From the NCBI GenBank assembly GCA_903896675.1, contig CAITYU010000055.1:1-32642 (forward strand): 32,642 nucleotides of DNA, given 5' to 3'. The DNA is from an uncultured Planctomycetaceae bacterium (GTDB lineage Bacteria; Planctomycetota; Planctomycetia; Planctomycetales; Planctomycetaceae). The number at the start of each line of letters is the position of its first letter. Within the stretch, counting starts at the first letter, position 1. The notes under the pieces are model-generated. The model worked only from the letters and a program-made list of their open reading frames with translations, did no database searches and had not been told where the DNA came from. Below are positions 15,388-17,773 of the stretch, in pieces. Position numbers and translations under genes: made by a program.

Positions 15388-16434
15388 TCAGTTGAAAGCA
15401 GTCCCCAGCATGATGGAATTCAGTCCGCTGCCGATCCCCAGCATCGCGAACCGCTCACCCGCCCGCGGCGGTTCCGCCTGCAGTCCCAGCGACAGGGCCA
15501 TGGGCAGAGCGGCGGCCCCGGTATTTCCAAGGAACTCGACTGTTGGAAAATCAAGTGCGGGATCGAGTTGCAGACGCTGCATCAGGGCCGTGCGATGCTG
15601 GCGACCGACCTGGTGAGTGAAGACGCGGCTGACGTCGGAGTTGCGCCAACCCAGCACCTGCTGGGTCTTCTGCCAGGTTCTGCAGGCCAGCGCGATACCC
15701 GCGTGCAACAGGGCTTCGGAATCCGTCTCCATCCGGGGACGCCCGTCCCCGCCCCCCGCCTCAACGCCCCCGGCACACAGCTGATGAGCCGACGAATCAG
15801 ACAGCCACGCGCCACCAAGCAGGCGATGGCCCGTGCGACTGAGCCGCCGATCACACAGCACAATCGCCGCAGAACCGGAACCAATGGTCAGCGAAGCAAA
15901 GGCCGACTTGATTGACTGGCGTGTCAGTGTCGTGTCCTGCAACAGACTGTCGATCGTGCCTTCAACCAGATCTCGACCGGTCTCCGTACCGACAACGAGA
16001 CCCGCACGAATCCGCCCCAGTTCAATCTGATCGGCGATCAGCAGCAGACCGTTGAGCAGCCCGAGGCAGGCGTTGCTGACATCCAGCACCAGACAGTCCG
16101 AGGGCAGACCAGCACCGTGATGGACCCCCGCCGCGGTGGCAGGCTCCATACGGTCACGACAGACGGAGCCGTGGACGAGTGCACCGATCGCATCCACCGG
16201 CAGACCGGACTGCTGCAGCGCCAGTCGTGCCGTCTGCACACTGACAGTACCGGGCAGCACCCCCGGGTCCCACCAGCGACGCTCGCGAATCCCGGTCATC
16301 AGTTCCAGTCGACCGGCCGGCAGTCCCAGTCTTTCGTAGACCGGTGCCAGCCTGCTTTCAATCTGGTCAGAGGTAATGACGTGAGGTGGCAGCAGGTGAG
16401 CCGCCGCCTCGATGCACACGTTATGGTATCTCAT
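15388..16434 (-). CDS. 3-oxoacyl-ACP synthase III family condensing enzyme, OleA-like
   Basis: A 348-residue thiolase-fold enzyme. The FabH/OleA catalytic set is present: nucleophile Cys123 (SNACLG), His274 (THQVGRQH) and Asn304 (GNTGAA). A glutamate in RMEPATA (E97) matches the one OleA supplies across the dimer for its acyl-CoA condensation. N-terminal spacing and blocks (NVCIEAAAHLLPPHVITS, GIRERRWWD, the ALLHAGIALA segment, QVLGW, LGIGSGLNSIM) resemble OleA, which makes beta-keto acids for long-chain olefin synthesis, more than FabH. No OleB, OleC or OleD gene is visible in the window. The gene starts 17 bp after the peroxiredoxin stop, so the two form a likely operon. Fatty-acid initiation remains an alternative role. 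Confidence 0.9.
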   Translation of the reverse strand: MRYHNVCIEAAAHLLPPHVITSDQIESRLAPVYERLGLPAGRLELMTGIRERRWWDPGVLPGTVSVQTARLALQQSGLPVDAIGALVHGSVCRDRMEPATAAGVHHGAGLPSDCLVLDVSNACLGLLNGLLLIADQIELGRIRAGLVVGTETGRDLVEGTIDSLLQDTTLTRQSIKSAFASLTIGSGSAAIVLCDRRLSRTGHRLLGGAWLSDSSAHQLCAGGVEAGGGDGRPRMETDSEALLHAGIALACRTWQKTQQVLGWRNSDVSRVFTHQVGRQHRTALMQRLQLDPALDFPTVEFLGNTGAAALPMALSLGLQAEPPRAGERFAMLGIGSGLNSIMLGTAFN

Positions 16435-17122: not shown

Positions 17123-17155
17123 AAAAAAAAACGGCTGACAGAGAACTGTCAGCCG
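17123..17155 (-). terminator. Strong Rho-independent terminator of the small Lys/Ala gene
   Basis: CGGCTGACAG (17132-17141) and CTGTCAGCCG (17146-17155) form a perfect 10-bp stem with an AGAA tetraloop. On the minus strand it is followed at once by nine T residues (17123-17131). It lies 29 nt past the stop of the 30-residue gene. Confidence 0.96.
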
Positions 17156-17183: not shown

Positions 17184-17276
17184 TCACTTCTTCTTAGCAG
17201 CCTTCTTTGCAGCCTTCTTTGCAGGTGCAGCAGTAGCAGCCTTCTTCGCGGCCTTCTTTGCAGCTTTCTTTGCCAC
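17184..17276 (-). CDS. Small lysine/alanine-rich, histone H1-like protein (30 aa)
   Basis: A 31-codon gene with a GTG start. The product is 13 Lys, 14 Ala, one Thr, one Pro and the initiator Met, arranged as repeated AAKK units on both sides of an ATAAPA centre. Such Lys/Ala repeats resemble histone H1 and chlamydial Hc1/Hc2 tails that bind DNA, so a nucleoid- or RNA-binding role is likely (inference from composition only). It is real rather than chance: GGAGG lies eight bases before the GTG, and an ideal terminator follows 29 nt after the TGA. In-frame reading upstream to a TTG would add about 16 residues (ending RFLEERT), but the ribosome binding site would then lie inside the gene. Confidence 0.82.
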   Translation of the reverse strand: MAKKAAKKAAKKAATAAPAKKAAKKAAKKK

Positions 17277-17284
17277 AGTACGTT

Positions 17285-17289
17285 CCTCC
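17285..17289 (-). promoter_or_regulatory. Ribosome binding site fixing the GTG start of the 30-aa gene
   Basis: GGAGG on the minus strand with an 8-nt spacer to the GTG at 17276. It is a full anti-SD match and the main support for this very short gene. Confidence 0.85.
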
Positions 17290-17773
17290 AGAAAACGTTG
17301 AACTTGTTGTGGCAGTCCTGCCAAGGCTTACCGGGCTTTGAACACTCAGGACAACCACGGACCAAAACATCACTCGCTGCTGTCCCAGTGACAACAGCGA
17401 CGCAGATTCCATTCTTGCCTGATGAACGCTTTGAAGTCCGCTTTGAGAGGCGATGTCCTTCGCCACGTGCATCCAGCACTTGTGCAACAGAATCTGCTGT
17501 TGGTGATCAGAATGTTAGGTGAATATATGGATAACGCAAGACTGTTCGACATTTTTCTGACACTGATCTCAGGATTTTTTTGACATCAATGACAAGGTCA
17601 CATCAGCCTGCTCCATGCTCACCATTCGTCGCACGTTCATCGACCGTGTGATCATCATTGCTGCACTCTGTTGTCGAGCACTGCAGCATCTCTCATACGA
17701 CTCAGCATCTCAGCACCACACAGATGTCCTGCTTCTGCAATTGCTGCTCAGTGCATCCCACTCTCCTGCAGCA
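17290..17773. other. Long intergenic region upstream of the 30-aa gene
   Basis: Nearly 500 bp without a recognisable protein gene. The middle (about 17510-17590) is clearly AT-richer than its surroundings, with two short A/T runs, and contains a possible minus-strand promoter. Short inverted repeats include CAACAG/CTGTTG (17485-17502) and GGCAG/CTGCC near 17315. If the promoter is right, the small gene has a leader of about 230 nt, long enough to hold a structured RNA or a separate small RNA. Confidence 0.5.
17512..17539 (-). promoter_or_regulatory. Candidate sigma-70-type promoter for the 30-aa gene
   Basis: On the minus strand TTGCGT (17534-17539) and TAACAT (17512-17517) are separated by 16 bp in an AT-rich stretch. 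Matches to consensus are only partial, and the implied leader is long. Confidence 0.3.

Follow-up and report, generated by a model that had tools for sequence, protein, structure and literature searches.

The window analysed here is one whole contig of 32,642 nucleotides from a 5.9-Mb draft genome of an uncultured Planctomycetaceae bacterium. Its minus strand carries a very small gene, in which a Shine-Dalgarno sequence GGAGG (17285..17289, read from 17289 to 17285) is followed by an 8-nt spacer, a GTG start codon (17276-17274) and an open reading frame of 30 codons closed by TGA at 17186-17184 (17184..17276). The codons comprise 13 Lys, 14 Ala, one Thr, one Pro and the start, and the translation is VAKKAAKKAAKKAATAAPAKKAAKKAAKKK. 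Behind the frame lies an intrinsic terminator (17123..17155, minus strand), classed as terminator-like in the scan, with a 10-bp stem (17155-17146 with 17141-17132), a 4-nt loop and nine T residues (17131-17123). The original prediction had described all of these elements and every detail is borne out by the sequence; the interval that it gave, 17184-17289, covers the gene and leaves the terminator outside. The pattern GGAGG-N8-GTGGCNAARAA has a single match in the window and none across 100 shuffles. Upstream on the same strand and outside the unit, Pfam and the comparison of neighbours place a gene for a xylose-isomerase-like TIM barrel (PF01261, 17774..18613), used here as an orthology anchor. 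Elsewhere on the minus strand, positions 15388-16434 match the NCBIfam model for 3-oxoacyl-ACP synthase III (NF006720, 410 bits, above the cut-off of 285).

With the region as a DNA query, the Lys/Ala locus was found in 17 of 18 genus genomes, including that of the window; the exception (G009, without a match) is 87% complete. GGAGG is invariant in the 17 loci, the start codon is GTG in 16 and ATG in one, and all length changes amount to whole codons. Fourteen loci encode proteins of 26-35 amino acids and the other three encode proteins of 68, 69 and 98. Among the 14 short forms, five of the first 12 codons differ only synonymously and two differ otherwise (one of them the start codon); the variable sites number 1, 1 and 6 by codon position. 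The last nine codons include two with synonymous-only differences and one other. Both sides of the terminator stem change together within the genus. The frame 5' of the GTG is not kept and shifts between relatives; GTG was therefore taken as the start, and a longer protein from an upstream start (a 46-amino-acid ORF from TTG) was rejected. Conservation of frame and signals likewise rules out a chance ORF. The original prediction had staked itself on a translation signal and on a frame conserved in close relatives, and had proposed to check other planctomycetes for the peptide and the terminator; frame, GGAGG and terminator are kept in the 17 genus loci, so the prediction withstands its own refuting condition.

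A promoter-like site lies about 235 nt upstream of the window's GTG. It consists of a -35-like element TTGCGT (17534..17539, minus strand), where TTGCGTTAT is invariant in all 17 genus loci, and, after a 16-nt spacer, a -10-like element TAACAT (17512..17517, minus strand), which conforms to TANNAT in 16 of the 17 loci (L019 has TACATT). Across the family, TTGNNN-N15..19-TANNAT occurs in 65 of 75 loci versus 7 on average (maximum 13) over 50 mononucleotide shuffles, and the distance from the end of the motif to the start codon has a median of 234 nt (range 177-354). A simple E. coli-consensus scan reported no promoter in the 17512-17539 region, so the promoter call rests on conservation. Between this site and the gene, we assign a structured 5' leader RNA to 17277..17505 (minus strand) from genus conservation and the models R1 and R2 described below, the transcription start being estimated. 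The original prediction had caught the signals next to the gene and had missed both the promoter-like site and the leader.

Detection beyond the genus relied on two models, whose E-values are approximate. R1 is a covariance model of 90 positions covering the leader's 3' hairpin (P3), the ribosome site and the first codons, and was made from 17 sequences. It matches 137 of the 170 family genomes and 48 of 58 genera, and in each of the 137 genomes a Lys/Ala-rich ORF directly follows the best match (two of these ORFs run off the end of the stretch). All 137 loci were inspected: the 17 of the genus with four others, 54 taken at one to three per genus, and the remaining 62. Sixteen of the 137 are themselves in the model (L123 is model row L066), as is L201 if it equals model row L077. 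Because R1 includes the start of the coding part, R2 was built from 27 sequences of two leader hairpins alone, with no coding part. R2 matches 122 of the 170 genomes and has 16 matches away from any R1 match. One of these (G090) is truncated by a contig end, its genome having an R1 match at the end of a different contig. A Lys/Ala ORF follows 13 of the remaining 15; the other two (L196 and L197, the latter a second match in its genome) lack one and look like chance. The Lys/Ala unit is thus present in 150 of 170 family genomes (137 by R1 and 13 by R2), nearly always with the matches at one place per genome. Two genomes have a second, weak R1 match (L260 and L261), neither before a Lys/Ala ORF, and both are taken as chance. 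Frame, ribosome site, promoter-like site and terminator are kept in close and distant relatives, and by this comparison of sequences the micro-gene is real and conserved across one planctomycete family.

In a class-wide draw of 397 genomes, 124 match R1; 21 of these are outside the family, and all 21 are weak (E 2e-4 to 9e-3). Six were inspected: three stand before Lys/Ala ORFs, two before an HU-type gene and one before an unrelated gene. As R1 contains the ribosome site and first codons, such matches do not show that the leader occurs there. The two before an HU-type gene (L173 and L175, in G426 and G350 of another family of the class) precede a product that starts MAKKSGSK (at L173, PF00216, E 2.6e-13), and a GCCGGGCTCC-type stretch lies before the gene at both loci; the shared start may make them match by chance, or a second nucleoid gene may carry a related leader. 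The exact P3 motif was found in 17 stretches from named genomes, 16 of them before a Lys/Ala ORF (in one case truncated where the stretch ends). Nine of these 16 are labelled Planctomycetaceae and the rest Planctomyces, Planctomycetales, Planctomycetota, one Fuerstiella and one Kuenenia. In L071 (Thermoguttaceae) the exact motif is followed by no Lys/Ala ORF. The motif had no match in viral contigs, and a mobile-element origin was set aside.

The Lys/Ala proteins cannot be aligned, and orthology was judged by place. The isomerase-like gene lies upstream on the same strand in every one of the 17 loci of the genus and, elsewhere in the family, in 41 of 54; of the 13 misses, two have too little upstream sequence. 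Since it is found in 58 of the 71 loci, we regard the place of the Lys/Ala gene as orthologous. Four further loci with 1.5 kb of flank gave the isomerase-like gene at L021 and L030, and it was not seen at L024 and L027. Downstream, no gene is common to most loci: the largest same-strand cluster accounts for 15 of 70 loci, and a peroxiredoxin follows in 9 of the 17 genus loci within the sequence stretch examined.

Over 75 loci, the proteins are 18-125 amino acids long (median 47) and consist of Lys (49%), Ala (33%), Thr (5.5%), Pro (3.9%) and Val (3.8%), with a remainder that includes Ser, Arg and Gly. Asp, Glu, His, Trp, Tyr, Phe and Cys are absent in 74 of the 75 (L027 ends in Phe). The start codons are 63 GTG and 12 ATG, and a terminator-like site occurs within 200 nt after 61 of the 75 stops versus 1 of 75 after one mononucleotide shuffle. 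The 62 loci inspected later have the same appearance. Pfam returned no family for any of five proteins, namely the window's, scanned as the 46-residue frame from the upstream TTG (E up to 0.01), and four longer members (E up to 1). In NCBIfam, one of three proteins (L138, 125 amino acids) matched hist_H1_lk_Burk (NF038053; E 1e-4, 22.6 bits versus a cut-off of 80), and the window frame had no match. This H1-like match is far below the cut-off, and such matches follow composition.

The likeness to histone H1 tails suggested by the original prediction does fit the composition, and the closest parallels are bacterial. According to the available part of PMC2848022, Hc2 (hctB) of Chlamydia and the BpH1-type proteins of Bordetella and Burkholderia are built from short repeats, in Hc2 Lys-rich pentamers, that combine Lys with Ala, Val, Thr and Pro, and the number of repeats sets protein size. 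Lys-rich short repeats of this kind and repeat-driven size variation, both marks of the Hc1/Hc2 type, are found in the 75 loci and the further 62. The Lys/Ala proteins differ in that they are shorter (18-125 versus 165-237 amino acids for Hc2), have no Pfam match and an NCBIfam match only below cut-off, and are encoded behind a conserved structured RNA leader, although Hc2 was compared by protein only. A second parallel is the C-terminal domain of AlgP and PhaF of Pseudomonas, an H1-like chain of Lys/Ala/Pro repeats thought, in the portion of PMC9239181 available, to bind DNA. There the chain is the tail of a larger protein, whereas here it is the whole protein.

P3 lies just 5' of the ribosome site (in the window 17309..17358, minus strand; GTGG..GTCCTG / CAGGAC..CCAC in the consensus fold) and has GCCCGGT in its loop. 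In an alignment of 69 of 76 loci (A5, seven genus loci left out), six of its six outer pairs show double changes, with 94 double-change cells versus 25.3 in shuffles and at most 26 with the partner slid. Upstream of it, P2 has a 10-bp stem whose C-G and A-U pairs close around NGGU. In 27 of 39 inspected loci picked for a clear hairpin (A6), 97.4% of cells are paired, with 39 double-change cells versus 8.4. The count was repeated on all 58 non-genus loci, where 95.5% of cells are paired, nine of ten pairs have double changes and the double-change cells number 128 versus 22.3 shuffled and at most 27 slid. The two larger alignments, A5 and A7, were each fitted to a model, a procedure that leans towards the structure. 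On these counts, the two leader hairpins covary strongly. A further element, CUC[UC]-N3..6-GGAG, stands directly before the start in 37 of the 58 non-genus loci and could pair with the ribosome site. It occurs in none of 637 other windows, which have no ribosome site and so make a weak control. The remaining arrangements of two C and two T before the same sites are seen in 0 to 2 loci, except TCTC (18, versus 36 for CTCT).

In the window's own genus, the leader has diverged, given that the CUCU element is found in 0 of 17 loci and R2 matches only 4 of 18 genomes, the window's own not among them. Another hairpin stands in place of P2 (17375..17399, minus strand; stem CGCTGTTGTC / GACAGCAGCG), with compensatory changes in the 11-sequence alignment A2; from its position, it is taken as the counterpart of the family P2 (UCA-NGGU-UGA). 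The 17-sequence alignment A1 gives this stretch a different fold. Besides this local hairpin, the consensus fold of the 11 sequences contains a long-range helix with almost no variation. Of the last 215 columns of the leader, start codon included, 71 are invariant in the genus. R1 matches the window at 17263..17352 (minus strand, E 9.4e-20, the sequence itself being in the model). Folded as a single sequence, the window's leader shows no unusual stability (z -1.28; 22 of 200 shuffles did as well). Because of this, and because the genus alignments fold differently, the evidence for leader structure rests on family-wide covariation.

Riboswitches and ribosomal-protein-type leaders in Rfam likewise have covarying hairpins between promoter and ribosome site, each before a single kind of gene. 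The Lys/Ala leader differs in belonging to no Rfam family at threshold: Rfam 15 gave no match reaching its gathering score in the window and ten related loci, and a relaxed threshold gave eight matches, all far below gathering scores. No known RNA, tRNA or tmRNA was matched at the locus. The P3 loops of many family members (for example L168) carry GUGCCAGC, which we take to equal part of the 530-loop of 16S rRNA; this likeness is not kept in all members, and is for that reason probably chance.

We propose that the gene encodes a minimal polycation of the histone H1/Hc2 kind in a single-gene unit, and that the leader most likely controls its translation, a reading to which we give an even chance of being right as a whole. 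The transcription unit would consist of a promoter, a structured leader of about 230 nt, the small ORF and a terminator. The product, a Lys/Ala chain, would surely be disordered in solution and most likely acts by coating and compacting nucleic acid, chiefly DNA; it is probably nucleoid- or RNA-binding. Repeat units would be gained and lost, so that length varies and composition is kept. P2 and P3 may form a binding platform near the ribosome site, which the adjacent CUCU could hide in most genera outside the window's own. As the simplest trigger, and here we speculate, product not bound to DNA would itself bind the leader. A fuller version, in which a new, family-specific class of leader lets an H1-like polycation sense its own free level, and with it how polycation and nucleic acid are balanced, set its translation and so keep nucleoid compaction constant, is offered tentatively and is doubtful. 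The original prediction had read the strong signals as abundant expression. The strong ribosome site follows a folded leader that is conserved, with CUCU beside the site in 37 of 58 non-genus loci, and this points instead to expression that is regulated rather than simply strong.

The peptide might act on something other than the nucleoid. Polycations bind any polyanion, so RNA, ribosomes or polyphosphate could be the target, and the proteins compared above offer examples: Hc2 binds RNA as well as DNA and represses translation (available part of PMC2848022), and AlgP, which acts with DNA through its H1-like tail, organises polyphosphate granules (available portion of PMC9239181). We consider such a target possible, if clearly the lesser prospect. 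It is unlikely that the locus serves chiefly to make a small RNA, regulatory or structural, expressed from a promoter and terminator of its own and with the peptide as a secondary product (a dual-function RNA). The strict conservation of the genus leader (71 of 215 columns) and the detection of the leader alone in 122 of 170 genomes, nearly always at one place each, would suit such an RNA. Against it, in all 137 R1 genomes the match leads into a Lys/Ala ORF that has a start codon and runs over 18-125 residues, codon changes in the genus are mostly synonymous, and no convincing leader without an ORF was found, as the two such cases among the 15 R2-only matches and L260 and L261 look like chance.

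Control of the leader by a CsrA-type RNA-binding protein is suggested by the P2 loop UCA-NGGU-UGA, which presumably resembles the RsmE/CsrA site consensus, by CANGGTTG, present in 47 of 66 leaders versus 1.6 expected from shuffles, and by the many CsrA genes (PF02599 in 170 of 170 family genomes, with about 3 to 17 matches each and 7 in the window's genome). The co-occurrence is uninformative, since CsrA occurs in every genome. GGA is the core of CsrA sites, whereas the P2 loop has GGU, and in the 66 leaders, with the last 25 nt and hence the ribosome site left out, neither GGA (148 versus 176.2 shuffled) nor A-N-GGA (46 versus 41.0) is enriched. The GGA counts thus do not support a CsrA trigger, which we regard as quite improbable. 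Attenuation, with a Lys-codon leader peptide and a terminator that controls a downstream operon, would account for a short Lys-rich ORF followed by a terminator. It is hardly credible for ORFs of up to 125 codons and with no conserved biosynthetic gene directly downstream, where neither the peroxiredoxin (9 of 17 genus loci in the stretch examined) nor the largest same-strand cluster (15 of 70 loci) is general.

For the preferred H1/Hc2-like polycation, the interest lies in planctomycete nucleoid condensation, for which a gene in 150 of 170 genomes of one family is a concrete candidate. The available part of a 2012 tomography paper on Gemmata gives no histone homologues and two HU-like candidates (PMC3440768), and among the literature matches listed, no paper title names a planctomycete H1-like micro-protein or such a leader. 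The protein is too small and repetitive for the protein families searched; the leader, itself absent from Rfam, is what makes the gene findable. What stands out is the family-wide micro-gene with an RNA leader that matches no Rfam family. A transposon survey of P. limnophila has been published (PMC10632474, seen in part), and tools thus exist if the family includes Planctopirus.

Three minor observations were made alongside. CsrA-family genes are multiplied across the 170 family genomes (for example G081 and G025), and among the literature matches listed, none concerns such multiplication by its title. No ACAACGAG-like stretch was seen after the stop codon in the genus loci; ACAACGAG or a close variant lies between the stop codon and the terminator at L020, L022, L024, L025, L029 and L030, from several other genera and families. 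Finally, other planctomycete proteins, at L003 (G000:C38; MSGPIVRTGTTPEFWKNYDRIFG in the window's genome) and L023, consist of a short N-terminal segment followed by a tail rich in Lys/Ala or Lys/Thr.
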